Part shown: positions 26,501 through 49,445 of the stretch, one piece after another
Numbering within the stretch: position 1 is the first letter of the stretch
Layout of the letters: each line of letters starts with the position of its first letter
NCBI RefSeq assembly: GCF_000003605.2
Contig: NW_003123908.1
Location: 177,949 to 229,168 of the forward strand
Source: Saccoglossus kowalevskii
Taxonomy: Eukaryota; Hemichordata; Enteropneusta; Harrimaniidae
DNA: 51,220 nt
Reading direction: 5' to 3'
The notes under the pieces: model-generated
Told to the model about the DNA's origin: nothing
Database searches by the model: none
Seen by the model: only the letters and a program-made list of their open reading frames with translations
Program-made: the position numbers and the translations under genes

Positions 26501-27806
26501 TTACCATGGTAACCCACCTTGGGGTCAGATGACAGTTAATCAGGCACGAGCACGTACTGGTAGTCAAGGAAAGTTTAAGGTAGACACAAACCGACACCGA
26601 GAACAGTTAATTGCGCAAAGACGCCATCATTCAGTCGATAGCCGACCAGCTCAGCTGCAGCCTGGAATGAACATTGGTGGGCGCTTGATCAACCCGCTGA
26701 ATGTCAATGAATTTGAAGAACTTAATAGACAGGCAGAGAATGTCCCCCAACAACGTAGTAATTCTCCACTAACACTCCCAGATAATCCCACATTGAGTTA
26801 CCACGATGACCGTGTCAAGCGACCAACATCTTTAGCTCTGAGTGCTGGCTTGAATGGGATGAAAAAAAAACTTGTGGCTATGTATGTTCCCGGTCGTAGT
26901 TCAAAAAGTGGCGTCCAAACAGGAATTGCCAAAATGGAGGCAAGTGACCCACACTGCCACCAGGCGACAGTTGCGCACAATGACCGAACATCAAAAGGCA
27001 GGGGAAACATTAGCAACAAAGTTGTTAAACAGGCATCAACAAAAGTTGAAATCACTCAACAGCCAGAGAGGTTAGCTACTGCAGCTGTCCAACAACATCA
27101 GCCGAGTGGACGATTGCGAAAAGATGGATATGAGTTGGTGAGCACACAGTCCGATGGTGACGATCGAAAACAAACCCCAGCTGTTGTTCCTCGACCAACT
27201 GCTGTAACACAGTTATCTCAAAATTCTTTGGAAGGTTCACATTCGCCAAGTAAGGTGGACAAGAAAAATAAAAGACGGGGCACTCCCTATAAACTTTTAG
27301 CAGGCAGGTTTTCATTACACGAGGACAGTAAAAGTGATATAAATTTCAGGGAGAATGGAAAAGGGAAAGACAGAAGGAAAGCAGTCAGTGTTGACATTGA
27401 TTGCATGAATACGTTATCCTTATCAAGCACTGATCTCAACAAAGTACATATACCGAATACACCACCGATTGGAAGTAGCCAATCAGAAAGCTCCTTACAT
27501 CAGAATGGTAACTCAGTACAGTGTCCTAATAACAAAGTCACTCTTATTGGACAAGCACAAAATGTGACCTCACCACCGAATAATAGTACAAACAACAACA
27601 CAGCTCTCGAAAATAAAGTGAATTCACAAAATTGTGAAAAAATACCCAACGGCGTTATTAAGTCTCCAGTTATTTCTAGTAGTCATATGATAACCATGGC
27701 AGACGGGCAGTATCAGCTGAACGATATCCAGGAAACAGTCGTAAAACCACCGCCAAATACCATTGAAAGAAGTGATGATGTGTCATTCAGAGTCTCTTGT
27801 CTTTAA
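5399..27806 (+). CDS. BMPR2: BMP type II receptor serine/threonine kinase (gene span)
   Basis: Type II receptor that binds BMP ligands at the plasma membrane, phosphorylates type I receptors and so starts SMAD1/5 signalling. Coding exons: 5399-5513, 12836-13036, 19905-20090, 22147 to at least 22617 (cut by the N gap), 23485-23632, 24989-25125, 25686-27806. All visible junctions are GT/AG and phase-compatible. The ectodomain has ten cysteines including the FCCC...DLCN signature; then come one membrane helix, a kinase domain and a tail of more than 600 residues. The ending of the kinase ([12 protein letters not shown]) and the following SVSPTVN match vertebrate BMPR2 nearly residue for residue. 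The catalytic loop and DFG motif are not visible because about 85 residues fall in the assembly gap. An activin type II receptor is excluded by the long tail and the BMPR2-specific kinase end. Confidence 0.96.
5690..5724. repeat. (TATTC)n microsatellite
   Basis: About five TATTC units preceded by degenerate copies from about 5676, shortly after BMPR2 exon 1. Confidence 0.85.
6058..6217. mobile_element. MITE family A, copy 1 (TA target site)
   Basis: TA-CTGTAAA at the left and TTTACAG-TA at the right are inverted; inside, the arms (GGTTAATTATTCACTGGGTTT and its complement) also pair, so the 160-base unit can fold into a hairpin. TA duplication points to a Tc1/mariner-type source. BMPR2 intron 1. 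Confidence 0.75.
6591..7081. repeat. 28-base minisatellite
   Basis: About 17 units of TCTTGATTTGAAAATTRTWA plus TTATTCTG, some three bases shorter. Two main variants (TTGTAATT and TTATTATT) alternate at the start and then the second takes over. Starts right after a (TG)n run. Confidence 0.92.
8001..8289. repeat. 56/59-base minisatellite in alternating units
   Basis: Five units starting AGAATAACCCTCCCTCAATC at 8001, 8060, 8116, 8175 and 8231, with lengths 59, 56, 59, 56, 59. Long units have GTTATGAGCG, short ones GTTAGCG or GTTAGTG. Confidence 0.93.
8725..9005 (-). mobile_element. LINE (non-LTR retrotransposon) C-terminal fragment
   Basis: A minus-strand frame reads [20 protein letters not shown], then [20 protein letters not shown] and [10 protein letters not shown]. 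The pattern R.C..C......ED..HF...C..Y...R is the zinc-binding end found after the reverse transcriptase in many invertebrate LINEs. Only about 90 codons remain and no reverse transcriptase domain is visible; this is a fragment in BMPR2 intron 1. Confidence 0.6.
10260..10738. mobile_element. Element with about 40-base inverted ends
   Basis: AAAACTGACCAGCGGGGATA with ATAAATACACCAGAAA at 10271-10306 is mirrored by TTTCTGGTGTTTTCATTATT with TCCGCTGGTCAGTTTT at 10690-10725. Inside, two copies of a GCACAGTGTGCA / GCACAGCGTGCA segment lie about 180 bases apart. Non-coding; single copy here, in BMPR2 intron 1. Confidence 0.68.
10955..11180. repeat. Degenerate CCAAT-containing tandem repeat
   Basis: CATCTTATCCAATTAAATTT occurs at about 10968 and 11056 with similar followers (ACAATTGGTATGGTAA / ACAATTGGAATGGTAA), and looser copies (TCCAATCACATTYRAT) lie between and after. 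Imperfect, roughly 88-base period. Confidence 0.6.
12316..12459. mobile_element. MITE family A, copy 2
   Basis: Same ends as the copy at 6058 with a slightly shorter middle; flanked by TA on both sides. Only about 380 bases upstream of BMPR2 exon 2. Confidence 0.75.
12836..13036 (+). CDS. BMPR2: BMPR2 exon 2: ectodomain, first half
   Basis: Phase 1 to phase 1 exon (66 whole codons), acceptor TTTCAG, donor GTGAGT. It codes for the N-terminal half of the three-finger ligand-binding domain, with three cysteines in ITCAYY, ITCTE and PYCFTAW. Cys-(Y/F)-x-x-W after the second finger is typical of type II receptors (vertebrate BMPR2 has CYGLWEKS here). N-glycosylation sequons: NTT before the second cysteine. 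Confidence 0.93.
13570..13880 (+). mobile_element. tRNA-derived SINE
   Basis: The head resembles a tRNA gene: a box-A-like TGGTAGCATATTGG and, about 35 bases on, a box-B-like AGTTCAAATCC (consensus GGTTCGAATCC), ending TACCA. A non-tRNA body (CCTACCCTGGGTGAGAGTGC and on) follows. Such RNA polymerase III promoters mark SINEs. Lies in BMPR2 intron 2; the ends are approximate. Confidence 0.6.
14619..14678. mobile_element. MITE family A, single arm
   Basis: Only one arm is present (TCCAGTCAGCGAAATAAGCA to TTTACAGTA). The left half is missing, so this is a truncated copy in BMPR2 intron 2. Confidence 0.65.
15472..15682. mobile_element. MITE family A, copy 3
   Basis: Longest copy (211 bases) with extra internal arm sequence (GTTCACTGGGTTTTTATTTAG), TA at both ends. 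Confidence 0.72.
17165..17559. mobile_element. MITE family B, copy with internal duplication
   Basis: Begins TTTTCACCACC and ends GGTGGTAAAAATTAAT (inverted). The inner part GCAGAAAAATTTG...GAAGATGGGACAAAAATAGCC occurs twice, so this copy is longer than the one at 21073. BMPR2 intron 2. Confidence 0.65.
19287..19569. mobile_element. MITE family C (CAGGGTCCATAGC ends), copy 1
   Basis: CAGGGTCCATAGCGTTG at the left, and GCTATGGACCCTG at the right, a perfect 13-base inverted end. The CAGGG start recalls hAT-type transposons, but no clean 8-base target duplication is seen. BMPR2 intron 2. Confidence 0.72.
19905..20090 (+). CDS. BMPR2: BMPR2 exon 3: ectodomain, second half
   Basis: Phase 1 to phase 1 exon (61 whole codons) between TTTTCAG and GTGAGT. 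It starts with GCWPY, corresponding to GCW in vertebrate BMPR2, and carries seven cysteines, including [10 protein letters not shown], the hallmark end of the type II receptor ectodomain. A Ser/Thr/Pro-rich juxtamembrane stretch ([13 protein letters not shown]) follows. A sequon NET lies just before the CCC motif, in the same region as NGT in the vertebrate protein. Confidence 0.96.
20091..22146 (+). other. BMPR2 intron 3
   Basis: 2.1 kb, with MITE family B at 21073-21366; otherwise plain AT-rich sequence. Confidence 0.7.
21073..21366. mobile_element. MITE family B, fullest copy
   Basis: TTAACCCTTTCACCACCA at the left and TGGTCGTGAAAAGGTTTAA at the right are inverted. A 25-base segment (TTTTGTCTGTTGGCTCC and AAAATTAGGGTT) is duplicated inside. 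BMPR2 intron 3. Confidence 0.72.
22147..22617 (+). CDS. BMPR2: BMPR2 exon 4 (partial): transmembrane helix and kinase N-lobe
   Basis: Acceptor TTTCAG; the first two bases complete an Asp codon. Membrane helix at about residues 181-203 ([20 protein letters not shown]), followed by a basic stop-transfer (RKM). The kinase begins with [20 protein letters not shown] (glycine loop GTGRFSNV), the ATP-binding lysine is K261 in VAVKVF, and the alpha-C glutamate lies in LNEREIY. The hinge [12 protein letters not shown] is followed directly by the N gap. Helix and N-lobe share one exon here; the vertebrate gene uses several exons, so introns seem to be missing. The true 3' end lies in the gap. Confidence 0.94.
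22618..23075. other. Assembly gap (458 N) inside BMPR2
   Basis: A run of N interrupts the gene straight after the kinase hinge. From the vertebrate protein, about 85 residues are expected between here and the next visible exon: the HRDL catalytic loop, the DFG magnesium motif and part of the activation segment. The stretch 23076-23484 after the gap reads as intron. Whether the receptor is catalytically intact therefore cannot be judged from this window. Confidence 0.95.
23485..23632 (+). CDS. BMPR2: BMPR2 exon: activation segment and kinase C-lobe
   Basis: Phase 0 start after TTTACAG, phase 1 end before GTTAGT. Codes for [20 protein letters not shown], the P+1 loop and APE-like motif (SPE instead of APE), then the alpha-F region [16 protein letters not shown] and DLFPG. 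Nearly identical to vertebrate BMPR2, which has [21 protein letters not shown] at this place. Confidence 0.96.
24114..24300. mobile_element. MITE family B, partial reversed copy
   Basis: Reads as the complement of the other copies (CTAACCTTTTCACCACTAGA, then TTTTTCTGCACTTTTTTCTT) and stops after the middle. BMPR2 intron between the two C-lobe exons. Confidence 0.65.
24989..25125 (+). CDS. BMPR2: BMPR2 exon: kinase C-lobe
   Basis: Acceptor TTTCTAG, donor GTAAGT, phase 1 to phase 0 (45 whole codons). The peptide begins [20 protein letters not shown] and continues to [14 protein letters not shown]. The EVGNHPTFEDMQ.LVSREKQRPKFPEAW segment of vertebrate BMPR2 aligns without a gap. Confidence 0.95.
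25686..27806 (+). CDS. BMPR2: BMPR2 last exon: end of kinase and long C-terminal tail
   Basis: 706 codons plus a TAA stop in one exon; acceptor TTTTTTTTGCAG. The first 40 or so residues finish the kinase ([20 protein letters not shown], then [11 protein letters not shown]). The rest is a low-complexity, Ser/Thr/Asn/Gln-rich cytoplasmic tail, the part that sets BMPR2 apart from other type II receptors. Islands shared with vertebrate tails: SVSPTVN just after the kinase, KRPTSLAL, a basic K/R/S-rich patch followed by [17 protein letters not shown] (vertebrate DEHEPLLRRE), KRRGTPYKL (vertebrate KRVKTPYSL), [17 protein letters not shown], and a final Cys-Leu. In vertebrates the tail binds LIM kinase, dynein light chain and other partners; that these are kept here is inference. 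Confidence 0.95.
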
Positions 27807-34874: not shown

Positions 34875-37164
34875 CTAAAAATAGAAATAAATATGTATTG
34901 CTCATAAATTTTTACTTTATGAATAATAGATATAAAACCAGACTTGTGGGAATTATAAAGACTTTGACCTAGCTTACCTGTTTAAATTTTGCTCTAATTT
35001 TATTCAAATCACTGAAGAAATTTTCACCATGAACATTATGCACGTCAAATTTGTGCAGCATTTCCTGTAGAGATTCTACTGCTTTTAATATTCTGAAAAC
35101 AAAATGTGATATATTAGCATGTAGGTGAAGCCCTACAACATGGCAGTACTCCCATGATGCACCTCAAGCTTTTTGGTACTTTAGTAATGAAATNNNNNNN
35201 NNNNNNNNNNNNNNNNNNNNNNNNNNNNNNNNNNNNNNNNNNNTGGTAGTACTCCCATGATGCATCTCAATCATTATACGCAGGATTTCTAGTTGCAATT
35301 TTGAAAGACACAAATCACCTAAATTTATAAAATTGCAGACACTTTTATTTCGACTTGCCAATCATGGCAGACAAATGACATTTAACTGCTAAACAATGAA
35401 ACTGAATTTAATTCACATTAGAACTACCAAATGATGATAATTGAAGGGAAAGAAAACACAGCCGTTTCATGGTATCCATGTCAATAAACTGTATTTGACA
35501 ATCATTCTGTGATATTGCGTCAAAAATATACCAAGCCATATTCCTGTAACAAGGGTCTAATTTTGCCCATTAACTTGGCTAACAGCCAATAATATTTGAT
35601 TCAACCCAAAATAAGTAAATTATATCTATGTGTAAAATGCGATTTCACACTAATGGTTCATTTGATACAACCTTTATAATCTGTCTTCATTAAAATATTC
35701 ATTTTCTTAACACGTTTGAGTGCATTGTTTTCAATGTACAATTTTCTCTTGTTAAATCGTACACACAATAACATACACATGTAACCATACACGAATATTT
35801 TTGATTAAACATATGAACACTGAATCTGATGCAAGAAAACCCATAGATGAAGTGCCACTACATAATATAGTAAATTTCAAATCATGACTTTACCTTGGAT
35901 TCTTATCAGACTCTTTTTCAAGTAACTTTTTCCATGTTGAAATAAATCCCATATAAAATCCAACTTCAGAACCAATTTCATTTCCTTTATTTTTTCCTAG
36001 ATTTTCTCCCTCTTGTAAACCTTTTTGTTTTCCGGCTGTATACCCATCACTGTAGCCTTCATCATAGAAGCTGTTGTAGACAACAGGAAACAGGAACATA
36101 AAAGGCTTGACCATTAGAATGTCAGAGTAGAACTACTGTGTAATGTATTTTTTTTTATAGTTTTTTCTTCACATTATCGCTCTCCATAGCAAATACAACT
36201 CATGTTAGCATAGATATCTGACAAATGACTCGCTTGTTGTACTCACTCTCTTAAATCTTATGTCTGGAATGACTTGTATATTTTTCTTATTGTCCAAGCA
36301 AATTTATTGCAACTGCTGTTTTTTTTTTTTATTGCTGTGGCAACTAACAGCTGACACAGTGTGTAGGGAAAACATGTAACCCTTACTGACTGCGAAGTCA
36401 AAATATAACAGCAATTCCAGACACCAATAAAGAATGGCTAATCAGTGGAACAGAAGTCAGGTACCCTGTCTTATTCGTCTTGTGGTTTCTGAGAAGACCT
36501 TATTTACAGATAAATAGTTATTATATTCATCATTAGCATCTCGTCAAACCACAGCCCTCTAAAAAAAAAAGATTTTTTTCTATTCGAGCACATCCAGGGA
36601 CACGTTTGCCTTACTATACACGATTCATCATGAACAGCTGAATGGTAAATTATTTTGATGATGTTGGTGTATTTTGTTATAACATGTGTGTGTATGTCTT
36701 TTCACCGGTACCTGTGCAACAGGACAACTCTCGATTCTGAGACTATTGGGTTAGAAAGACTGACAAACCTGTGTGTTTTGTTTTTGATCCATTTTGTAGA
36801 AATTAAGCTGGCGAACATCCATTTTTCTAACCAGAATTCCATTACCAACAAATTAAAACAATATTTGATCTTTGTAACCTTTTTTTTTTCAGGAGAAATT
36901 CAATCAAACGCTAACAAAACATTGTCGTCTGCGGAGTTGTTCTAATAGTGGTATGAGCCCTCAAGATACAGCTACTTCCGGGACTGTCAACAAATGGTGT
37001 TATGACAGAAATAAAACACGAGTTTTATTTTTTTTTTCAAATTCTGAAAGTGTGTTGGCAACGTTTATAGCTACAACTTACCGTTCTCCAGCCAAAACAA
37101 TGGCATCAAACGCAATGTCGAGTTCATCGAGATCATCATACTCTCGTGTATCACAGGAAGCCAT
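34809..37164 (-). CDS. LTO1: LTO1 / ORAOV1 homologue, ABCE1 maturation factor (gene span)
   Basis: With YAE1, LTO1 forms the adaptor that links the cytosolic iron-sulfur assembly (CIA) machinery to ABCE1 (Rli1), the ribosome-recycling ATPase. Coding exons on the - strand: 37164-37082, 36070-35894, 35092-34978 and 34874-34809, giving 146 residues (human protein 137). All borders are GT/AG and in phase. Residues 33-69 carry ten glycines spaced exactly every four residues (deca-GX3), the family signature. The start DIAFDAIVLAGER, the helix LNKIRAKFKQVCSLLNV and the end LSF all match the human protein. The gene converges with BMPR2 and runs in the same direction as the lectin receptor upstream. 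Confidence 0.94.
34978..35092 (-). CDS. LTO1: LTO1 exon 3
   Basis: 38 codons coding for two helices, ILKAVESLQEMLHKFDVHN and FSDLNKIRAKFKQ (human VLESLIGMIQKF and LHEDLDKIRGKFKQ). Acceptor GTTTTCAG, donor GTAAGC. If the following intron is retained the protein ends three codons later, losing the C-terminal client signal. Confidence 0.93.
35194..35243. other. Assembly gap (50 N) in LTO1 intron 2
   Basis: Fifty N, a conventional size for a gap of unknown length. Almost the same sequence (GTACTCCCATGATGCA followed by CTCAA) occurs just before the gap at about 35145 and just after it at about 35249. The join may be a collapsed tandem duplication or two haplotypes placed end to end. No coding exon is affected. 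Confidence 0.9.
35894..36070 (-). CDS. LTO1: LTO1 exon 2: deca-GX3 region
   Basis: 58 whole codons. Residues 29-70 run FYDEGYSDGYTAGKQKG and on to GSEVGFYMGF, with Gly at 33, 37, 41, 45, 49, 53, 57, 61, 65 and 69: ten GX3 units without a break. In yeast and human this segment pairs with the matching segment of YAE1. The exon continues with STWKKLLEKESDKNP. Acceptor CTACAACAG, donor GTAAAG. Confidence 0.95.
37082..37164 (-). CDS. LTO1: LTO1 exon 1
   Basis: 27 codons plus two bases, beginning MASCDTREYDDLDEL and ending in the conserved helix FDAIVLAGER (human FDAIVMADER). The donor is CG|GTAAGT on the - strand. The start ATG at 37164-37162 has A at -3 (TAAAATGG), a good initiation context. The upstream 300 bases or so are richer in CG dinucleotides than the surroundings, as in a promoter. 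Confidence 0.9.
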
Positions 37165-38523: not shown

Positions 38524-38574
38524 CTACAACATTTCTAAATTGACGTAAATATTTTCAGTTCTGCCGGTGTCTTC
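38524..38574 (-). CDS. Lectin receptor exon 14: C-terminus with YVNL motif
   Basis: 16 codons plus TAG: EDTGRTENIYVNLEML. Tyr716 lies in YVNL, which is both a YxxL motif and a Y-x-N motif of the kind bound by the GRB2 SH2 domain. Acceptor TTTGTTTGCAG. The reading frame ends here. Confidence 0.8.
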   Translation of the reverse strand, partial: EDTGRTENIYVNLEML

Positions 38575-41500
38575 CTGCAAACAAAAATATTACAAAGTGA
38601 ATATTTTATAAGGCACATATGTCGATTGATGTGAATAGTTGAGAACACTCTATTTACCTCATTTCGATGCAATGCAGGCCGTAGATCTGTGTAGTCTAGG
38701 AGAGACAGGATATGAAATTAATATGTAATATGTTTATTACACGATATACACATTCACAAAGAGAAGTACTTATATATATATGGTAATAGAGAAATTAAGA
38801 CACAACTACTCTACAGAACTGTTTGGAAGCGTACAAGTACCCCACTCATCAGAAGCTTAATGTTGTGTTTTAATTCCTCTATTACCGCCGTATATATATA
38901 TATATCGAAGGCACGTCGAACTGATTCGGGTTAACAATGTGACTAACAACATCACACTAAAATGACTGATTGAATGTGAATATTATATTATTATATTTTG
39001 TTTCTATAACTTCAGGACAATTCAACAACACACACATTGTCCATTCGTTCTATATGGTAGACTAGTATTATGATAAACAAATCGGTCAATAACAATTTTG
39101 CAATAAATATAAATGCACATTGCATTGTCATTACTCGTCATCAATTTATAATATCAGAAATACATTGAAAGCATCGTAAGAACCACATTTTACTGCAGAT
39201 ACAATATAATAAAGTGAACTAGAACAAACCTTGGTCGCTTGCCAGTGAGTTATTGAATACGAGATCCATATAGAGATTAGATGAGTCTATGGTATATATA
39301 TTAGACGAGTCGATAGGTGTTCCATCTTGTTCAATGGGTCTGTTAATTCTAGATATATATGCACGTCAATACAACATTTACTAAATTAATGGTACTTTTG
39401 ATGACAATATTGAATTATTAACCATAGAACCAGGAGAGCTTAGAGCAATGCGAAATCAAGTGAATATCAGTTATATATATAATCGAGTTTAAGATAGTTG
39501 TTTGACTAATACTTACCTTTTTGTTAATTCCGTGTCATCTGTAAATGAGAAGTGTGTTTTATATATTTTATTGCTGCGTTAACAAACATCATCGGTATTA
39601 ATTGGAACGTCAAGACAAGTATTAAACATATGTTTACTCACCTTTTGCCGATTCAGTACTTTTGCGCTGTTTAAAGATGAAAAGTGCCTCAAATAGAATG
39701 ACACCGACAAGAATCACTATAAATACGAGTAAAACCACCACAAGAATAGATAATGGATTCCCTGTGTAAGCAATAATAATAATAGGTGATTTTCCGTACA
39801 ATTGCGAGATCTCGCGAGATGCATGAAAGACGCGCGTCGAACGTCTGCCGCAAAAATCGAACGATTTGATTTTGAACTAGAATTTCTTTATTTCGTAGCT
39901 TACATTGACCGGCCGATTTTCGACAGAGGAATATTGCTTCCGAATACCCTTACTTAATCAAAATTGCCTATCATCAAATGTGGACAGCACATTATTGAGC
40001 ATGGAAATGTCCCCGAAATACTTTCGCGTTTGTCGAATCCCACGCGATGTTTGACGCGACTACGACGCTATGACTTTTGTTTGTCCTGTTTTTACGTTCG
40101 ATTTCACGCATAACGCGTGATTCTCGCAGTGAACGGAAAATGGTCTATTCCGATCAGTTCAACGGTACTCGGATGTATTAGACAACTAGATAAACAATAT
40201 CATAGTTTCCACTACGGGCGCCATTAATCTACCAATTAGGCTTCATGAATACCGACATAACTGTATGATGTAGTCACTGTTATCTTCAAAACACAAAATA
40301 GGCCGACTTTTCCTTAATATCAGAAGTGTTTACACAATCTCTGACATATCTCATTTTGCAGTTGACACGTTCATTTAAATTTCGTATCTAAGAACGAGAT
40401 TAATTTTAAGTTAAGAAATGTCATTAACTCATGGTTGCATTACAGTTATGGTAAACAAAATTTGCCCTGATGTTTTTGTTTATCTTTTGTGTTGAGACAG
40501 TAAATCAAATTTGGCAAAACGATGGGGAAAAAATGCTTATCATTTGTAATCACTAATTATTTTGAATTTCATTTATAAAATGTAGAAGAATTATAATTGA
40601 TTTTTTTTTATTTTTATAATTCGGATTGTTGGTTTATACAAGACACAAATACATATATCCTATAATATAGTTTTTTGGGCAAAACGCAGAAATACTATGA
40701 AAACAATCGTTTTTTAACTCCATGTATACATCATAAGTTCTTTCGTTGCTTACCTAATGTAGTTTCCGTTATCGATCCAGAAGTTGCATTTCCAATCCAG
40801 TTCTCACTCACCACTTCAATCGCATATTCTGTTGCAATAAAAAGTGCTGTGATGGTTTGTTCAGTATGTGCTGTCCAGCGTGTTCGTTGAGTTTGACTCG
40901 TTGGTAACTCAGAATACACTAAACAAAACTGCTGAGAGGCTCCGCCATCAAACCCCGCAGTCCAAGAAATACTCACTGTGGTTTCGGTTGTGTCAGTAAC
41001 GGTAAGATCAGTGGCAGGCTCAGGCTCCCCTGTTAATGTCAATGAAACTGATTCAAATTCCAGTAGTACATTTAAACGAGTGGTTGGACATTTACTGAAT
41101 AAAGGATCACTCCGCTGATACAAACATCACTTAGGCAGCTGGATTTTTGTTTGATCTCACCAAAATTCAATTATTAAGTTTGCATAAACCTTAAAAATGT
41201 ATTTTTAAGGTCTATGCAAAAACACTGCTATCAGTGGCGGCGGCACCGGGGCAGAATGGCGGTCGCCCACCCGGAAAAAAACATGTTGGGGCGCCCCCCC
41301 CCCCAAATCAAGCTGAAACTTTTTGTGCTAGCAAAATTTGCCACTCAAAATGCAGGAAATATCGTTCCAGAGGGTCTAGATATCAGATCTCGCTCACTCA
41401 TGCAACATTTCGTGCCACCGCCTCTGGTTATATATCAAATGAAAATTACAACGTGTTATGTTCATTCAGTGAATGTACATAATTGAAAAAACACTATAAC

Positions 41501-44056
41501 AATGGCAAACACCTAGCTCATGCAAAGAGTTTAAATGTTTAGTCCTAGTGATCCCAGTTTCAGATTTACTAGTATTACGAAACTACTAACACGTGACATG
41601 TATGTATGAATGCATTGAGCAGATTAGAATATGAGAGAGGATGTTAAGCGTGAATTTCTGAAGAGATATTGTGAATAATAATACTGTAGTTTGTAAGACG
41701 CGTCAATATACATGTATATCATATATACATACACATAATATCAATCCATGTGGTTGCCTCGTCTGTGTATTCTTCGCCATCAAGTAACGTATTTCTACCA
41801 ACACAGACATATTCACCAGACTGATGTCTGCTGATTCCCGGGATATTGAGTTGATTACCTTCTTGTATAATGATGTCACCTTTCGTCCACACTACGTCAG
41901 CAGCGGGGTTAGCGTCAACTATACACTCAATTGACACGGCAGCTCCTTCAGCCACAGTAAACCTATCCTTCACCGACACCTCAGGTCCATCTAACAGAAA
42001 ATATGTATTTAAATGACGATAGTCGCACCGCAGTGTACCAGTAAACAATGTATTTTACACGCACTGTGTACGTCGCGACGTGACGATCACCACAATTTAA
42101 AGCAGGAGGTTCGTCACTTGCGCACGCGCGGGAATTGAGTCCCATGCGACGATAACAACACACGCTAAAAACGCAAAGGCTCGTGGGTAGACGCTTCTTT
42201 GTAAACAATGACACGCTATGGCCATCTGCGTATGCGCAGGCGATGACTCCCCCGCTTTAACTAAGAACATGCTGTTTTTCAAATACAAACTGAAATCACG
42301 AATTACATTCAATGACAGGTCATCAAGAGGTCATACTCACATTGGACGTCGATATGGGTAGTGTTCTCCCCGGTTCCTGGTCCTATGGGTTCTGACGTGA
42401 ACGTATTCGTAGCATGGCATGTGTAAATACCGTCGTGTGACTTTTGTACGTTTTGTAGAGTCAGAGTTTTTCCTTCACTTTCCCGATCGTTAAATGATAT
42501 CCACTTAATATCTGCGTTAGGCACAGCGTCAACCATGCAGTTAACAATGACGTCATTACCAACAATAACAGAGTACACATCCGGGACATATACATCTGGG
42601 GGATCTGTAAGTTTTCACACAAGATATCTGATTCATATGATTGGTTGCGAACTTGTTGGCTTATGCATAACATAATATATCGGTTTTAAAGAATTCAGTT
42701 GTTGATTAGATTTTATATATATATATATATATTTTTTTTTTGTGTGTGTGTTAATAACAATTTTTTTTTTATTTTGAAAACATGGTGAATCAATTTGAAA
42801 GAACATTTTGAATAAGTCGTTATTACAAGAGGTTTATTCAGCGTGCCTGATATCGAGTGTGTCATCGCGTCAACGCTAAAATGCCAATGAATTTATTTTC
42901 ACTGATTTTTGACGAGTTGAATGTAAAATATAAGGAAAAGGTATATTCGCTGGATTTTATTGTCACTGGACCATTCCTTCGGGGAAAATAAAGTATTTTA
43001 CAGTAGTACACATAGGTGATATATTTGATTTGACCAACAAAATATTCAATTATGAAAATGAAAAAAAACAAAAAAAAACATAAAATATACGCAGCAAAAT
43101 AATTTGTTGGTCACAATTACCAGGATAATCGCTCGGAAAAATGGAATCGATAAAGTAAATCACCAGTAATAGCTGGAAATATGGAGTACCTAAGCGTAAT
43201 AATACCATGTCTAATACACTGTCCTCCAGTGAGTGGTTGTACCCGGATGTACTGGTGAGGACAATCAATTTCCAAAGATAAAATGATTTTAGATAGTGCA
43301 GTCTCTTTAAAACTTACATTCAACTATGACATTGGATTCTGATGACCCTTGACCTTGGTCACCATTATAATATGTATTGGTTACTTCACATAAATAAATA
43401 CCAGCTTGGTTACGTTGAATATTATGTATTTGTAATGGGTTATCTGTATTGAATACTGTGTCTTCGGGCCTTTTCCATCGAGCAGAATCACTGCAAGGTA
43501 GCGGGTTGCCGTCAGTTACTTTGCATAAAATATTGGTCGTCAGCCCTTCTCGAACTGCCACTATACCATCTGTTTCAGCCACAGGTGGGTCTTTAACAGA
43601 AGTTAGAGTTACAGACGCTGTTATTTAGAATATTATTTGTTTTTACTTTTGTTTTTTATTTTTTTTTATGAAGGTGATATTTGTTACATCTTGAATCTTT
43701 TTTTGAAGTCGCCCGTAATGAGTATGTTACTTAAAACGACATATATTAACGCAATTTCAAGTTCGTTCAAAGTGACAATTTGTTTAATTTGATTTACTGA
43801 ACGAAATTGTACGTGTGAATTTTGCAGTATTTACTGTGAATGTTTCACTTATTCACCGGGGTTTAATCTCGCTATTTCCGGCGATACGTAGAAAGTAGTA
43901 GAAGTTGTTTTTAAGTTACTGGTAATTTTTTTAAAATGTAAAACCCACAGAATATTTTCAATATTTTAAAATAGTGAAACCAAATGCCCGTAAAAATAAA
44001 TAGTTTTTACAGTATTATAACAATCGCATGTATTACACAGTAACACAGCATACAAA

Positions 44057-44115
<59 letters not shown>

Positions 44116-47100
44116 ATATACAATTCTTACACTGTACATCAAGGTGTGCAACTGCATCATCATCTTCTCCTACGCCATTGTCAGCGACGCACAGATAATC
44201 GTCGTCATCTGACAGTGCAATATATTTTATACGAAGTAATCCATCATCAATATAGTATTTATTTCCATCTGATCTGAGTCTGATATCATCTTTATACCAT
44301 CGGTACGTTACAGCCTTTGGTGTGCCAGTGGCCATGCAGGTAAATGTAACCTCTTCATACCGGAGTGCCGACGTGTCTGTTGGAAAGTGATAGATGGTCG
44401 CGGGGTCTACTCACGGAGGAAATGTAATAATACAAAATGTGCGAAATTAAAATAATAATCATTAGACAATTATATGTTATTTATACATCCTGCTGAGAAA
44501 TATCATTCACAAAGGAAATAAATAAATATTTCACTTAGTTTAGATATGATATATGTTACTGTAGAAATTGGATATAATATTAAACAAATATTACCATCAA
44601 TCCTTTTACATATATAATATTTCTCAGTATCAGCAACATCATTCCATTCTCCGTTAGTGAGCATTTCAACGACGTGTTCAGCAGAACCGAACAACTTGCC
44701 ATTGTTTGGTTCACCTTTATCCCAATTACTTTAAGGAAATATTGACAGATATAAGATGCGCATCTTCGCAATGAACATTCATAAATATAGCAAACTCGCT
44801 GACAGTGAATTGATCTACGAACTAAAGTTATACATCAAATGTTTGTTTGGAACCAATTGTCCTAGCCTGTTGGCTGATTTATTCTGGAAACTTGGGAAAT
44901 TGTTAAAAAATGGAATATTGGACGAACAGAAAGATGGATTGACTTGAATTTAACTGATGGTGTAGAACGAATCAGGCCACTTACCTGTAATCAACCTCAG
45001 TTCCATCACTCCAAAGAAATAAGCCCTCCTTGTAAAGATCATTAAAACCAATCCAAGTTGTGTCCTGTATTCTACTTTTTATCCAAGACTGTGCACACAT
45101 AGTGAACAAATTGTAATATTTAATGTATTAAATTATGTTATGAAATAACATTGGTTTTGTTAATGACAATTATTTGTCACTGAGTTACATCATTATTACA
45201 TCACTGAGTAAATAATAATTTATCGTGACATATAGATAAACCGTAAAATATGATAGGCGGCCAAATAATACGTATTAACAGTTTGAAGTGGTAGTAGTAT
45301 TCGGCATGCAATTTTTAATTACGATGTTCAATGAACATCACAGAGAAGCCTTCGAAGAAAGATGATAGACTGACTCTTCCGGTAGCCGTGTTGCTTTCCT
45401 GTTTTTCCTTTATGAGCTATGTTAAAGATGCTCCACACATTTTATGAAATGCCTGAAGAAACACTAATCAATTAGGTTTGAGCTGCAAATCGCCCGAATT
45501 TTCCTCTCATTATATAGCGAAAATACATTTACAATATATACTTTGTTTGGCAGCAAATTTCGCAACCTTTCTGTGTATGATTGGCCTTAAAAGACACGGG
45601 CAACAGACGTAAACTGTTATAAATATTTACATGTTTGAATAAATTATGGTAAATACCATAAATAAATTGATACGACTAATTATATTATCGTCTTCTCAAA
45701 ATCAAACTCATGAACGGTAGACCCAATTTTAATTTTACCTTGGAATGAACAATAAAAAGTAAGTGAACCATCGACTCAAAACCGGGGGATCAAATCGAAT
45801 TTCAGTATCAATTGACTTTGACAGTGACTTTGGGAGAAACTTATTTGATTGATGGTAGCGGCCGCATTTATTTTCCAAAGTGTTAGTATAACAAAAATGG
45901 TCCAAAGATAGAATATGGTTCCTGCCAGTGTGGAAACCATCATTAACTGTAAGCAGATAAGTCGCCGTTTTCTCTCACAAAAACATTTCCTGAAAAGAAA
46001 TATGAAATAGCTACATTCCTTTTTAGCGAATTTGACTCTTCTACATCTTCTACAGTCATCTTTGAACAGTTAAATACATGTATAATGTCTGGCAGTTTAA
46101 CGTCACATTTTACACATAAAAGCTATTATTTGGATTTATGTTTTTTTGTTTTGTTTCTAGATGTGGTCCAAATTATACAAATCATTATACTTTTTAATAG
46201 AGCCTTATACTTTCTTCACCCGTGGCAAGTTTCTTGTGTGATAATGACTTTAACAAAGTTCGAGTATATAAGAGAGTTGGGCTAACAGGATAATTTGATG
46301 CATTAGCTCAATTGATGAACCACAATTTGAGTTAAAGGGCGGCGGTTGTCGCGCCACGCATGCGCGAGATATGGGACTCATATGAACAAAAATGGCGACA
46401 TTGACTGTTTTGCAACCAACAAGCACAAATTGAGACGTTAGTAAGCGTGACAATGTAATTTCTTTGGTGAAAATATCGAAGGAGTCACCGGTGGTAATTA
46501 GCGACCTTGTACCCAGATCAACCCTCGTGATTTCCATTAGAAGAGCGCATTGGATTTTGGGAAAATCGATGTTGATCAACATAAATGTCGGTCACGCACA
46601 GTGCGACGACCACCCCACTTTAATCACAAATACAAAACGACAGTGAAAATTAAGGTAAACGTGTCTTACATTTTCACTTTCACTATGGATGCTTGCTAGT
46701 TCGCCATCTCTAGATAAACACCAATCCCTCGACTGTAACCATTCTTTTTCACTGTTACTAAAGTAATAACAGTATGTTCCATAATCCTCCCATCCTGACT
46801 GACAATCTGTGAATATTGATATATATCAGTTCTATCAGCGGTCGTCATACATTCCCATAGTAACAAAGCAAACATTAGTGGCTTTTCATCTTAAAACCGA
46901 AAACTCTATACGGCACCTAGGTTAGTTTTGCGGAATCCTCGTGAAGCGGAAGTAAAGCAGAGAACGGAACTTGCGCGTTGGTTGGTAAGGTTGCGAGAAT
47001 TGGAAAAAGTAAACTCCGCATAATATAAATACACGTATTATGGGATTTCAAAAAAAAAAAAAAACGCTCTTTGGAGTATATAACGAAAACTTTCATATTG

Positions 47101-48235
47101 ATCATTTTCAAACAATTATCGCAAAAATAATATTGTGTAGTCATCATTTTAGGAAGTGTGGTCATTTAATAAATAAATCTCAGTGATTGTTGACAACCAT
47201 CTGACCATGTTAACTCATGTCGGTCTTGTATCAGCATTCATTCAAGTACTGGGGTATGCTGAATATTTCAAACCAGAAAGTGTTTATCTGTTTATCTAAA
47301 ACATTTCACCTTTCAATTTAAAACCCCCACTGAATAGAGGTTAACAATTTTGGGTGCTATGAGAATTCTAGTGTTTGTTCTAGTGTTTAGGTTCATTATA
47401 TTCGGCAAAACGAACGACAACAATTTTCGTTCTGTCATATAATTGCTAACACCTCCAAAGTACTATTATGACTAAGCCACCTGTGGAGGCAAGTAAAAAC
47501 AGGAAATAACAAGTTACCGTCACTGAACATATGAGACTTGCGTAATATAGTTAGTTTTATTTTACTCACAGTAGAACACTTTTTTTTTTACTCAAGGTTC
47601 CAGTTATAGATGCAAATTCGATGCTGATTTCTATTGATGAGTGTCACAAAGTTTACCCCTGGTGTATTACTAGCCTGCACAATGTAAATCAACAGATACT
47701 GCTCTGCCAATACGGGTGAACACATTACGTAAATATGTACATTCCTAAGGTGATTAGATATTATCAGGTGGTGTGCATGTAAACACAGTGAACTCATCTG
47801 TTATCTACGCCATTATATTCAAAGGGCGGCAGTCGTCGTGCCGCGCCCTGTTCGATACTGGGACTCATAGCGACGTATACAACGTGTGTAAAATACATTG
47901 TCTATTCACATGAAATTCGAACACGCGCTGCGCGACGACCACCGCGCTTTAGCCATAGACCTTAGAAAAATTATAGTTATATCTGAGTGTGTTCATCGGT
48001 ACTATTAACTTACAGGCAACACTTAAATATAAATACAAATTTAGGTTAATTCCTCTTAACGAGTTTATATGTTGTGCATTCACAAGTAATATTAATGATC
48101 AAATTTCATGTTCTGGTGTGACTAATAATGTTAATACATACCTTTGGATTCAACGCTCAAATAAATCATCGATTGCACAATCCATAGCAACATGCAGACC
48201 CTGGCCACCAAGTAGTAACAACTGCACTGAAACAT
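38524..48235 (-). CDS. Novel C-type lectin / Ig / FN3 transmembrane receptor with tyrosine-motif tail (gene span)
   Basis: Fourteen coding exons on the - strand, all GT/AG and in phase, joined to 722 residues. Order: signal peptide (1 to about 30), C-type lectin domain (32-157), Ig1 (157-250), Ig2 (250-341), Ig3 (341-429), Ig4 (429-515), FN3 (515-607), membrane helix (610-630), KQRK stop-transfer (637-640) and an 82-residue tail with tyrosines 672, 680, 695 and 716. It should be a type I single-pass surface protein that binds sugar through its outermost domain. Each Ig and FN3 domain is one phase 1-1 exon, the usual layout for shuffled extracellular domains. I know no named vertebrate gene with this order, so no symbol is given. 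TTTATT at 38152-38157 is a possible poly-A signal (AATAAA on the - strand). Confidence 0.88.
38658..38695 (-). CDS. Lectin receptor exon 13: YTDL motif
   Basis: 38 bases: DYTDLRPALHRNE, with Tyr695 in YTDL. Acceptor CTCTCCTAG, donor GTAAAT, phase 1 to 0. Short, but in phase with both neighbours and carrying the same YxDL pattern as the preceding exon. Confidence 0.78.
38773..38907. mobile_element. Hairpin-forming MITE
   Basis: TATATGGTAATAGAGAAATT with AAGACACAAC is mirrored by GTTGTGTTTTAATTCCTCTA with TTACC, flanked on both sides by (TA)n. About 50 bases of loop. Lies in the intron between tail exons 12 and 13 of the lectin receptor. Confidence 0.68.
39230..39348 (-). CDS. Lectin receptor exon 12: cytoplasmic tail with DSSN-Y repeat
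   Basis: 39 whole codons. IDSSNIYTIDSSNLYMDLVF contains a back-to-back repeat, DSSN(I/L)Y, giving Tyr672 and Tyr680; Y680-M-D-L is a YxxL motif. Acceptor ATATCTAG; donor GTTTGT, weaker than the others. Confidence 0.82.
39517..39538 (-). CDS. Lectin receptor exon 11: 22-base micro-exon
   Basis: Codes for DDTELTK between acceptor CATTTACAG and donor GTAAGT. It enters in phase 1 and leaves in phase 2, so it is needed to put the following exon in frame. If it is skipped the tail is replaced by about 20 unrelated residues before a stop, removing all the tyrosine motifs. Supported by phase and by both splice sites; not by homology. Confidence 0.75.
39642..39761 (-). CDS. Lectin receptor exon 10: transmembrane helix
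   Basis: Residues 608-646. The helix spans residues 610-630 (LSILVVVLLV, then FIVILVGVILF), followed by EALFIF and the basic stop KQRK, so the C-terminus is cytoplasmic. Acceptor TTACACAG, donor GTGAGT. No charged residue lies inside the helix that would suggest pairing with an ITAM adaptor such as DAP12. Confidence 0.9.
39781..40148. mobile_element. MITE family D, CpG-rich copy
   Basis: Same element with about 90 extra bases (around 39890-39980) and CG dinucleotides intact, including the palindrome TCTCGCGAGA. Ends ATAGGTGATTTTCCGT and ACGGAAAATGGTCTATT. Lies in the intron between FN3 and transmembrane exons of the lectin receptor. Confidence 0.7.
40754..41029 (-). CDS. Lectin receptor exon 9: fibronectin type III domain
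   Basis: Phase 1-1 exon, acceptor CATTAACAG, donor GTAAGC. EPEPATDLTVTDTTETTVSI, SWTAGFDGG, QQFCLVYSEL, ITALFIATEYAIEVVSENWIG: the B-strand Trp, the C-strand Tyr and the TEYAIEV F-strand of an FN3 fold are all present. It lies just outside the membrane. Confidence 0.93.
41232..41426. mobile_element. MITE with CAGTGGCGGCGGCAC ends
   Basis: CAGTGGCGGCGGCACCGG and, inverted, GTGCCACCGCCTCTGG. The interior has a run of C (41296-41305). In the intron between Ig4 and FN3 exons. Confidence 0.6.
41733..41990 (-). CDS. Lectin receptor exon 8: Ig domain 4
   Basis: Phase 1-1 exon, acceptor TTCTGTTAG, donor GTATGT. Core residues: VSIECIVDANPAADVVWTKG and HQSGEYVCVGRNTL. The donor was placed by requiring phase 1, as in the neighbouring exons; a GTGTAT one base pair upstream would break the frame. 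Confidence 0.92.
42098..42260. mobile_element. MITE family E (CpG-rich), copy 1
   Basis: Ends TAAAGCAGGAGGTTCGTCA and TGACTCCCCCGCTTTA are inverted, and the marker GGAATTGAGTCCCATGCGAC is shared with the other copies. In the intron between Ig3 and Ig4. Confidence 0.62.
42341..42604 (-). CDS. Lectin receptor exon 7: Ig domain 3
   Basis: Phase 1-1 exon, acceptor AACTTACAG, donor GTGAGT. Core residues: VIVNCMVDAVPNADIKWISF and KSHDGIYTCHATNTF. A sequon NTT lies near the end. Typical I-set domain of 87 codons. Confidence 0.93.
43318..43590 (-). CDS. Lectin receptor exon 6: Ig domain 2
   Basis: Phase 1-1 exon, acceptor TGTTAAAG, donor GTAAGT. NILCKVTDGNPLPCSDSARW and later NQAGIYLCEVTN give the canonical Cys-Trp-Cys Ig core. 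An additional cysteine (PLPC) sits between the B and C strands. The domain starts with the PPVAET linker. Confidence 0.92.
43832..44014. mobile_element. MITE family A, diverged copy 4
   Basis: TA-CTGTGAA... and ...TTTTTACAG-TA with the same inner order (CACTTATTCACCGGGGTTTAAT, GAAACCAAATGCCCGTAAAA) but many substitutions. Lies in the intron between Ig1 and Ig2 of the lectin receptor. Confidence 0.6.
44054..44118. repeat. (AAAT)n microsatellite next to a splice donor
   Basis: About 16 uninterrupted AAAT units, only about 12 bases inside the intron from the donor of the Ig1 exon. Confidence 0.95.
44131..44409 (-). CDS. Lectin receptor exon 5: Ig domain 1
   Basis: Phase 1-1 exon. B-strand cysteine in VTFTCMATGTPK, tryptophan in YRWYKDD, and F-strand DDDDYLCVADNGVG: a normal I-set/C2-like Ig domain. 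The acceptor (TCCGTGAG) has a poor pyrimidine tract, so the exact 5' edge is the least certain in this gene. The donor is followed within 15 bases by a long (TTTA)n microsatellite. Confidence 0.88.
44595..44728 (-). CDS. Lectin receptor exon 4: C-type lectin sugar-binding loop and end
   Basis: Codes for NWDKGEPNNG, then SAEHVVEM, NGEWNDVADTEKYYIC. EPN (118-120), E129 and N141-D142 correspond to the five side chains that hold calcium site 2 in mannose-binding protein, and EPN predicts mannose/GlcNAc/fucose-type specificity. The cysteine expected after E129-H130 is Val131 and its partner after WNDVA is Asp145: both halves of the inner disulfide are gone. The last core cysteine, C152, is kept. 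Confidence 0.93.
44985..45088 (-). CDS. Lectin receptor exon 3: C-type lectin domain, central part
   Basis: 34 codons plus two bases, starting phase 0: SWIKSRIQDTTWIGFNDLYK, then EGLFLWSDGTEVDY. WIG.ND....G.F.WSDG is the most diagnostic C-type lectin motif (the WIGL core strand and the loop before the sugar site). Acceptor GTGCACAG, donor GTAAGT. Confidence 0.94.
45089..46669 (-). other. Lectin receptor intron 2
   Basis: 1.6 kb between the first two lectin-domain exons; contains the longest MITE family E copy and no further exon. Confidence 0.65.
46332..46622. mobile_element. MITE family E, longest copy
   Basis: TTAAAGGGCGGCGGTTGTCG at one end and GCGACGACCACCCCACTTTA at the other. The ATATGGGACTCATATGAACA segment matches ACTGGGACTCATAGCGAC of the next copy. 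Just downstream of the first lectin exon's donor. Confidence 0.65.
46670..46806 (-). CDS. Lectin receptor exon 2: C-type lectin domain, N-terminal part
   Basis: 45 whole codons: CQSGWEDYGTYCYYF, then W..SRDWC and GELASIHSESEN. This is the start of a long-form C-type lectin fold: the extra N-terminal cysteine pair (DC and YC), the first core cysteine (DWC) and the LASIHS.xE motif are all present. Acceptor TTCACAG, donor GTAAGA, phase 0 end. Confidence 0.93.
46807..48141 (-). other. Lectin receptor intron 1
   Basis: 1.3 kb with the short MITE family E copy and a poly-A/T run near 47050. No exon seen. Confidence 0.6.
47821..47951. mobile_element. MITE family E, short copy
   Basis: AAAGGGCGGCAGTCGTCG and CGACGACCACCGCGCTTT: 18-base inverted ends with two mismatches. 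In intron 1 of the lectin receptor. Confidence 0.7.
48142..48235 (-). CDS. Lectin receptor exon 1: signal peptide
   Basis: 31 codons plus one base: MFQCSCYYLVARVCMLLWIV and on to SVESK. The hydrophobic stretch YYLVARVCMLLWIVQSMIYL is a plausible signal peptide. The donor AAAG|GTATGT leaves one base, which with the next acceptor at 46806 makes the Asp of DCQSGW. The start ATG has C at -1 and A at -3 (ACCAAAATG). Evidence is position, hydrophobicity and phase; an alternative upstream exon (49169-49445) has the same donor phase. Confidence 0.68.
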
Positions 48236-49168
48236 TTTGGTGCGAATGTCTGTCTTCGTAATATATGAATCTAAATGGAAAACTTGAACAAGTCACAGTT
48301 TCGGAGCAGCCTGTTCGAAATTTAAATCGCATGAAAAGATTGCAAAATCTGTACCCACCGATGCAGAATTTACCAAGAAATGTGTTACCAGCCTCAAATA
48401 ACGTAACGTCTATTTTTTAACAGTGAAGCGAATAGTTTTGCACAGCGCATGCGTCAGGTTGAGTATGAACTTACACGACATCTTCCATGGAGTTTTCTAT
48501 GGTGTCTATAGAATGAAACTGTCTATATTTATGCTGTATGCTGCACAGCAATACATTTTTTTATTCATTTCGGCAGCTATCAACACGTGACATTATTGTA
48601 CTCGTAATACTTCTACCATCTTAAGTGTTCGCTTCGTGCATTCTGGTAATATAATACCCCCCCCCCCCTGCCGACCTCTTCTCCACAAATCATGCTCTAT
48701 TATAAAACATTATAACATAGCTATTTATAGATATTTTTTTAGTTTCCTCACGATTCAGAATACGTGGTACGATTCCACTATTAGTGCAATATTATCTATC
48801 CTTTCCTCAGCATGAGTATGTCTACTATATATGATTTATTATTAATTGTATAATGGCTTCCGGTCCATTACAATCATACAAATTAATTATTGAAAAGAAA
48901 TAAATTTATATTACAAAATATGTATGAAAATATAGATGAAGAGGGCGTCAATAGATAATATAAGTACTATATAATAATGTGATGGGGATATATATATATA
49001 TATATACATATACAAGCTTATTAGGTTATTCGAATTTGATATATGTCTATGAATGTCTATGTGGTATATATAAGCGAAACGTGTGGCACATTAAACTCTG
49101 TGGGACGATAAAGGAATTGTGTAAATTGTCTTTGTTTCCTTTTCTAAATCTACCCCTAGTTTATTTAC
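48236..49168. other. Upstream of the lectin receptor start
   Basis: Should contain the receptor's promoter if the signal-peptide exon is the first. Holds a poly-C run near 48657 and a (TA)n run near 48990; no recognisable coding sequence. Confidence 0.5.
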
Positions 49169-49445
49169 CTGAATGATTTTCCAGATTCCTAAATTGTAGA
49201 ATATGTTCATCAAAAACAACTACACCGTGACTGTAATCACCAATCATAGAATGGAAGTCTTTCAAAACGAATTCTTGGTATATTTTGGCATGAATACCTA
49301 ATTCAGAATTAGATAAACGTGTAGGTATCACTCCATTAATAGCGAAATTAAGACAGACTGATGATGGATTGGATATTTTGCATTATCAATCTGCCCTCAG
49401 GTTGATCCCAGATGGTAGCAGAGGTAGCCCACAACCGAGGGAGGT
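49169..49445 (-). pseudogene. Frame-broken exon upstream of the lectin receptor, possibly a decayed Ig-like domain
   Basis: A strong acceptor (TTGTTTCTTTTCAG) and a donor (CATTCAG|GTAAAT) bound 277 bases. One frame reads LPRLWATSATIWDQPEGRLI, then is lost after the ATA near 49386; from there the next frame reads CKISNPSSVCLNFAINGV and, further on, VLKDFHSMIGDYSHGVVVFD up to the donor. Length is one base more than a multiple of three, and without one base the exon would be phase 1-1 like the Ig exons nearby. The layout resembles an Ig domain with the second cysteine replaced (YSH), but I do not recognise it firmly. The donor phase would fit the lectin exon at 46806, so it may be a dead or mis-read alternative first domain, or the end of another gene beyond the window. 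Confidence 0.45.

Follow-up and report, generated by a model that had tools for sequence, protein, structure and literature searches.

A predicted Saccoglossus kowalevskii membrane receptor that joins a C-type lectin-like head, an immunoglobulin and fibronectin stalk and a tyrosine-bearing tail

A stretch of 51,220 nucleotides from the genome of the hemichordate Saccoglossus kowalevskii (contig NW_003123908.1, positions 177,949 to 229,168 of the forward strand; hereafter the window, in whose own numbering positions are given) contains what appears, from every sequence test that we have run, to be one gene for a type I membrane receptor, a conclusion that is well supported. The predicted protein is composed of a signal peptide, a C-type lectin-like domain (CTLD), four immunoglobulin (Ig) domains, one fibronectin type III (FN3) domain, one membrane helix and a tail of 82 residues with four tyrosines. 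This order is unusual yet not unprecedented: all of its parts are known, and what is uncommon is the manner in which they have been reshuffled. To judge from sequence resemblance, relatives of the head, the stalk and the FN3-helix-tail segment occur separately elsewhere in this genome. What the sequence shows is the anatomy of the gene and its homologies; its function as a receptor is inferred. The interpretation that we moderately favor is that of a kinase-less type I receptor assembled by the shuffling of phase-1 exons, in which a CTLD of the EPN type would bind glycan and the tail would signal by tyrosine phosphorylation.

When rebuilt from the raw sequence, the gene lies on the minus strand, with its ATG at 48235 and a TAG ending at 38524, exactly the outer limits that an initial annotation of this DNA had proposed. 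The reading frame is kept through all 14 exons, as the annotation had it, and the 13 introns between them, all GT-AG, range from 83 to 1581 nt; the joined exons, however, encode 727 residues plus a stop and not the 722 residues first given. A single alternative donor was noted: the use of the GT at 46660 in place of that at 46669 would add three residues (730 aa). We prefer the donor at 46669 because its GTAAGA is the better donor sequence and because a paralogue of the lectin head (locus L029, considered below) shares the same junction, GAAAAT followed by GTAAGA. The GC content of the coding part is 41.8%, versus 35.6% in the region. Within the introns of this AT-rich gene there are repeated GC-rich elements (46325-46622, 47812-47951 and 42042-42076) about 74-86% alike, with one pair inverted, which are perhaps copies of a short mobile element.

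The same annotation had read the gene as a single type I chain in the order CTLD, four Ig, FN3, helix and tyrosine tail, and had called for a domain-profile search of the joined protein. In the search of the 727 residues against Pfam, the Lectin_C profile was matched at 54.4 bits, Ig_3 at 139.5 bits over four stretches, and fn3 was matched as well; three of the four Ig exons (1, 3 and 4) clear the Ig_3 cut-off when they are scanned singly, and the FN3 exon alone reaches 30.1 bits. Hydropathy shows a signal-like N-terminal stretch and a single strong helix from about residue 619, followed by basic residues. The proposed chain is thus upheld by both profile matches and hydropathy. A predicted structure of the FN3 exon had a mean pLDDT (the predicted local confidence score) of only 50.5 and was too poor for use.

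The distribution of the intron phases is orderly. The CTLD is spread over exons 2-4, which are entered in phase 1, divided by introns of phases 0 and 2, and left in phase 1. Each of the Ig domains and the FN3 domain occupies a single phase 1-1 exon, as does the helix, and the tail is divided among a micro-exon of 22 nt and three short exons. Phase-1 introns flank the head, each Ig domain, the FN3 domain and the helix, so that any of them could be moved with the frame left intact.

We searched the genome (G000; 572 Mb in 4830 contigs) for relatives of each part. The whole protein, in its 730-residue variant, gave 63 matches, with 61 of 379 candidates scored. The closest relative of the head is locus L029 (contig C2847), where a signal exon and CTLD exons 56.5%, 58.7% and 38% identical (over 23, 46 and 34 residues) repeat exons 1-3 with the identical junction phases 1, 0 and 2. 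When the L029 head was itself the query (51 matches, 150 of 151 candidates scored), the window was its sole close relative besides itself (53%, E 9e-15); the next match (34%, E 3e-8) contains internal stops. Relatives of the stalk are found at loci L033, L034 and L031. In the first two an Ig1-like exon (46% and 43%, respectively) is preceded, on its own strand, by a V-set exon; in L031 a V-set exon occurs together with exons resembling Ig4 (42%) and Ig1 (36%). Judging by order and strand, the V-set and Ig exons of each locus would belong to one gene. All five Ig exons of L031, L032, L033 and L034 with both ends visible can be read as phase 1-1.

The least expected part of this history is an exon-level tie to the tail of a receptor kinase. 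At locus L032 an FN3 exon (phases 1-1), a helix exon (1-1), a micro-exon of 16 nt (1-2) and a tyrosine exon (2-1) agree in phase with receptor exons 9-12, and the joined FN3-helix-tail of the two align with 32% identity over 182 columns; the juxtamembrane score of this alignment was reached by none of 2000 shuffles, the L032 exon ends having been set by hand once the resemblance was noticed. The locus belongs to an Ig-FN3 receptor (L032/L036, C768:162501-179000) in which six Ig-like open frames can be discerned by eye, two of them Ig_3 matches. This gene differs from the receptor in that a tyrosine kinase is present and in that no CTLD match was found in 10 kb of L032, of which 3.3 kb is N. 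The kinase exons come next after the shared segment. The first of them has no match; the best reaches 56.1 bits against PK_Tyr_Ser-Thr, and the remainder, with 13.5 to 21.9 bits, stay under the cut-off. The receptor, in contrast, has no Pfam kinase match in its 727 residues, and none was found after its stop codon with the seven L032/L036 kinase exons as queries against the window: a single match (E 7e-4) fell inside a neighboring gene that resembles a BMP type II receptor, and the rest were at E 0.09 or worse.

The initial annotation had also suggested that paralogues with the same domain order be sought in the genome. Relatives were found part by part, and no second copy of the full order was found within the searches run. 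Over 200 kb of the 546-kb contig C1649, read as 20 stretches, no tandem paralogue with Ig exons was detected nearby at E 1e-3; the matches there were to CTLDs only, several of them at 40-60 kb. We also compared by eye, across the genome, the 147 places of Lectin_C (with 150 of 480 candidates scored) and the 150 of Ig_3 (150 of 621). The contigs common to the two sets were C1649, C2261 (1.2 Mb apart) and C3647, in a comparison that is blind to exon-split CTLDs, as the window's own CTLD is absent from the 147 places. Of the three, C3647 alone is left as a candidate. At C3647:774918-778706 (plus strand) an Ig match is followed by a Lectin_C match on the same strand, about 3.3 kb apart, possibly an Ig-CTLD gene of reverse order. 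A locus on C777 (L035) was rejected as a whole-gene relative, having several CTLD matches and no trusted Ig match. Two further concentrations of these domains were noticed. Contig C3771 matches Ig_3 dozens of times within some 470 kb, on the minus strand only, and its open frames there reach 1825 residues, which would be a very large Ig-repeat gene or cluster; and at C4110:4287-36599 Lectin_C matches recur about every 8 kb on both strands, which suggests a tandem array or an assembly repeat.

In mannose-binding protein, EPN, an acidic residue and WND supply the ligands of calcium and sugar. All of these are kept in the sequence of exon 4, so that the motifs of the mannose-type calcium site 2 are present in the receptor head. 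The outer cysteine pair and the N-terminal pair of the long form are also present. An alignment to DEC-205, however, shows that Cys2 and Cys3 of the conserved second CTLD disulfide have been replaced by Val and Asp, a paired loss, and the head has therefore not retained both of the conserved disulfides of a CTLD. Among solved chains, the best single-domain match is CD23 (95.2 bits), whereas the best single CTLD of DEC-205 scores about 50 bits; the highest summed scores are those of chains of the mannose-receptor family (the yolk sac IgY receptor, DEC-205, the PLA2 receptor and the mannose receptor). The CTLD is what these proteins have in common with the receptor. Unlike it, CD23 is a type II protein, and neither CD23 nor the mannose-receptor family has an Ig or FN3 stalk.

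The four tyrosines of the tail lie in the motifs NIYTI, NLYMDL, DYTDL and NIYVNL. Leu occupies position +3 of three of the four (a binomial chance of 0.0012 given how frequent Leu is in this protein, by a test chosen after the tail had been seen), and one pair, YMDL-x11-YTDL, fits the spacing Yxx[LI]-x(6-12)-Yxx[LI] of the immunoreceptor tyrosine-based activation motif (ITAM). There is also one YVN, a site of the Grb2 type.

How such a protein might work can be sketched. The head would bind a mannose-type glycan with calcium, and a multivalent ligand, a microbe or a cell, would cluster the receptor; its YxxL and YxN sites would then be phosphorylated by a separate kinase, and the SH2 proteins so recruited would lead to adhesion, uptake or activation. 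In the simplest history, a CTLD cassette would have been set before an Ig-FN3 receptor, the tail of which has a common origin with the tail of a receptor kinase. The gene is a clear example of phase-1 exons brought together from three sources that are all present in this genome, namely a lectin head, one-exon Ig domains and a juxtamembrane tail like that of a receptor tyrosine kinase (RTK). A bolder proposal, which we put forward only tentatively, is that the gene represents the founder of an ambulacrarian class in which a glycan-binding CTLD replaced the usual Ig head of an Ig-FN3 receptor, the signaling tail is a descendant, or the ancestor, of an RTK juxtamembrane segment, and ITAM-like tyrosines function without a kinase.

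A series of observations weighs against the glycan-binding, signaling receptor that we favor. The fn3 match in the whole 727-residue chain, at 25.0 bits, is exactly at the cut-off; Ig2 alone falls narrowly below that of Ig_3 (29.7 versus 30, E 9e-7); and exon 4, which carries the final third of the CTLD, matches nothing in Pfam by itself. Because the second disulfide is absent, the head may be less stable or may not bind sugar. The full domain order has been observed only once, as an assembly gap in L029 comes ahead of any Ig exon: beyond the third of its CTLD exons, N makes up 4799 of the 9500 bases of the locus, and the 8 kb that follow (L030), in which one would look for the Ig part of the paralogue, are all N. 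The L032/L036 kinase is degenerate looking, with, by eye, DLE in place of the usual DFG and a poor glycine loop, and may be a pseudokinase. In the tail, the ITAM spacing of 11 is near the long limit, and at -3 from the leading tyrosine of the pair there is Ser and no acidic residue. None of the four tyrosines fits the strict immunoreceptor tyrosine-based inhibition motif (ITIM), [SIVL]xYxx[LIV], and exons 13 and 14, which end the tail, resemble nothing else in the sequence read.

Full-text searches of an open-access library turned up neither the exact combination of CTLD, four Ig, FN3, helix and tyrosine tail nor any helix with a tyrosine tail added to CTLD-Ig-FN3, which is weak evidence of absence. 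The initial annotation knew of no named family with this order; as stated, this is not supported, since the module set of CTLD, Ig and FN3 is attributed to the Drosophila Contactin in the passages of PMC8006247 that concern it. There it is given as a septate-junction molecule, "C-type lectin-like, Ig, FN3", in one membrane-bound chain as in the receptor, but linked by glycosylphosphatidylinositol (GPI), where the receptor has a helix and an 82-residue tail. Among solved chains, a set to which the fly Contactin sequence does not belong, the Ig stretch (730-residue variant) matched Robo2 best (E 1.7e-27), followed by contactin-2 (8.8e-20) and DSCAM (8.9e-20). In the fly protein the modules follow the order CTLD, Ig, FN3, and its six Ig and four FN3 domains exceed those of the receptor. 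The receptor shares this order with Contactins of the arthropod type; a GPI anchor in place of a tail and Ig domains closest to contactin are not among its features.

The joining of a CTLD to Ig is a recurring combination, since it is known in fly, Botryllus, crayfish, snail and ctenophore. The Botryllus BSCLT has an N-terminal CTLD and a C-terminal Ig; the lines of PMC4944128 devoted to it name one of each and mention no FN3, helix or tail. The crayfish PcLec3 and the snail CREPs also have Ig and CTLD in one protein, like the receptor, but in the reversed order and with one or two Ig, and the pertinent parts of the two sources mention no FN3 or helix (PMC4944128, PMC10875847). The snail CREP/VIgL proteins are characterized there by a signal peptide, an N-terminal IgSF region and a C-terminal CTLD (PMC10875847), whereas the CTLD of the receptor is N-terminal. 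A fly CTL with several Ig and FN3 is cited in a passage of PMC4944128, and a section of PMC11797021 describes ctenophore CTLDs combined with several types of Ig. The predicted receptor would act in the manner of a lectin receptor; by the tests run here, it is not a contactin, a CREP, an ITIM-bearing Siglec or an RTK. Siglecs, CD22 and the FcR-like receptors have an Ig stalk with one exon per Ig domain and a phosphotyrosine tail, and Siglecs also have lectin-type recognition, although they bind sugar through a V-set Ig domain and not a CTLD; the receptor tail differs from those of Siglec/CD22-like ITIM receptors in having no strict ITIM. Should the receptor be expressed in immune cells, its CTLD would play in an invertebrate the part that a V-set Ig domain plays in Siglecs, and the gene would bear on the origin of kinase-less phosphotyrosine receptors from receptor kinases.

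A role in pattern recognition or adhesion is plausible, and the most serious rival to a glycan receptor places the function mainly in adhesion. The protein would then be a cell-adhesion molecule in the style of contactin or Robo/DSCAM, with a protein-binding CTLD, a tail serving mainly as an endocytosis or adaptor site, and no recognition of microbes. Homotypic or heterotypic adhesion would suit the ranking of the Ig stretch among solved structures and the loss of the second CTLD disulfide, and CD23, the nearest single CTLD, has a protein, IgE, as its main ligand. Fly Contactin, in which this set of modules recurs, is moreover described in PMC8006247 as a junction molecule. Nevertheless, the EPN and WND motifs are retained and the tail is rich in YxxL. 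There is also one phase-1 exon per Ig domain, as in many immune Ig receptors. We consider the mainly adhesive role possible but distinctly the less probable of the two.

Far more doubtful is the idea of two genes mistakenly joined, in which exons 1-4 would encode a secreted lectin and exons 5-14 an Ig receptor of its own. It could draw on the Ig1-homologous exons of L033 and L034, which stand beside V-set exons with no CTLD, and on the failure to see the full order a second time. However, exons 4 (CTLD) and 5 (Ig1) are separated by merely 188 nt and their phases fit, and the Ig1 frame has a stop codon shortly upstream of the acceptor with no ATG after it in the intron; Ig1 can therefore be entered by splicing only. 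The short gap and the closed frame together make two genes unlikely. Least credible of all is a recently decaying or unexpressed gene: two CTLD cysteines are absent, but all 14 exons are open, all 13 introns are GT-AG, and CTLD exons 1-2 diverge from their L029 paralogue most at codon position 3 (identities of 45, 54 and 39 of 69 at positions 1, 2 and 3).

Table 1. Exons of the predicted receptor gene, in window coordinates
Feature	Positions	Strand	Basis
Exon 1: start codon and signal-peptide-like stretch, ending in phase 1	48142..48235	-	Hydropathy; L029 counterpart 56.5%/23 residues, same donor
Exon 2: CTLD part 1, phase 1 to 0	46670..46806	-	Pfam; L029 58.7%/46 residues, same junctions
Exon 3: CTLD part 2, WIG motif, phase 0 to 2	44985..45088	-	Pfam; L029 exon 38%/34 residues, same phases
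Exon 4: CTLD part 3, EPN and WND motifs, phase 2 to 1	44595..44728	-	Lacks both second-disulfide cysteines
Exon 5: Ig domain 1, phase 1-1	44131..44406	-	Ig_3 46.3 bits
Exon 6: Ig domain 2, phase 1-1	43318..43617	-	Ig_3 29.7 bits
Exon 7: Ig domain 3, phase 1-1	42341..42604	-	Ig_3 44.6 bits
Exon 8: Ig domain 4, phase 1-1	41733..41990	-	Ig_3 40.6 bits
Exon 9: FN3 domain, phase 1-1	40754..41029	-	fn3 30.1 bits alone; homologous L032 exon
Exon 10: membrane helix and basic stop-transfer, phase 1-1	39642..39761	-	Hydropathy; L032 counterpart
Exon 11: 22-nt juxtamembrane micro-exon, phase 1 to 2	39517..39538	-	L032 16-nt micro-exon readable in same phases
Exon 12: tail, NIYTI and NLYMDL, phase 2 to 1	39230..39339	-	L032 counterpart, same phases
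Exon 13: tail, DYTDL, phase 1 to 0	38658..38695	-	No relative in sequence read
Exon 14: tail, ENIYVNL and stop codon	38524..38574	-	No relative in sequence read

Several other features of the window were noted. Just upstream of the receptor gene, at 49164-49382 on the minus strand, there is a coding-like open frame of 73 residues without a Pfam match. On the other side, at 35893-36132 (minus strand), an exon with a Yae1_N match (33.3 bits) probably belongs to what we take to be the LTO1/ORAOV1 gene. The neighbor that resembles a BMP type II receptor, presumably BMPR2 from the look of its sequence, extends over 12808-27806 on the plus strand; it has an activin-receptor match below the cut-off, a match to the kinase N-lobe, and an open frame of 718 residues that we take for the long tail, with an assembly gap (22618-23075) within the kinase.

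A final observation concerns the mitochondrial COX1 of the same genome, which gave a single match (L037, C4830:13523-14863) on a contig of 17,037 bases. Read under translation table 5, none of its 447 codons is AGA or AGG, seven are TGA and eight are ATA. In the best-matching solved chain, which we take to be that of mouse, the ATA sites align with Ile in five of eight cases, Val in two, Leu in one and Met in none; the query had Ile typed at these sites, and the evidence is that of the aligned solved chain only. Together with TGA as Trp, ATA as Ile excludes the mitochondrial codes of chordates, arthropods and molluscs, and would by itself also suit those of cnidarians or sponges; on this code a hemichordate such as Saccoglossus is the likely source. 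ATA is apparently read as Ile in this gene, and its single AAA codon aligns with Lys, which counts, as one codon, against an echinoderm.

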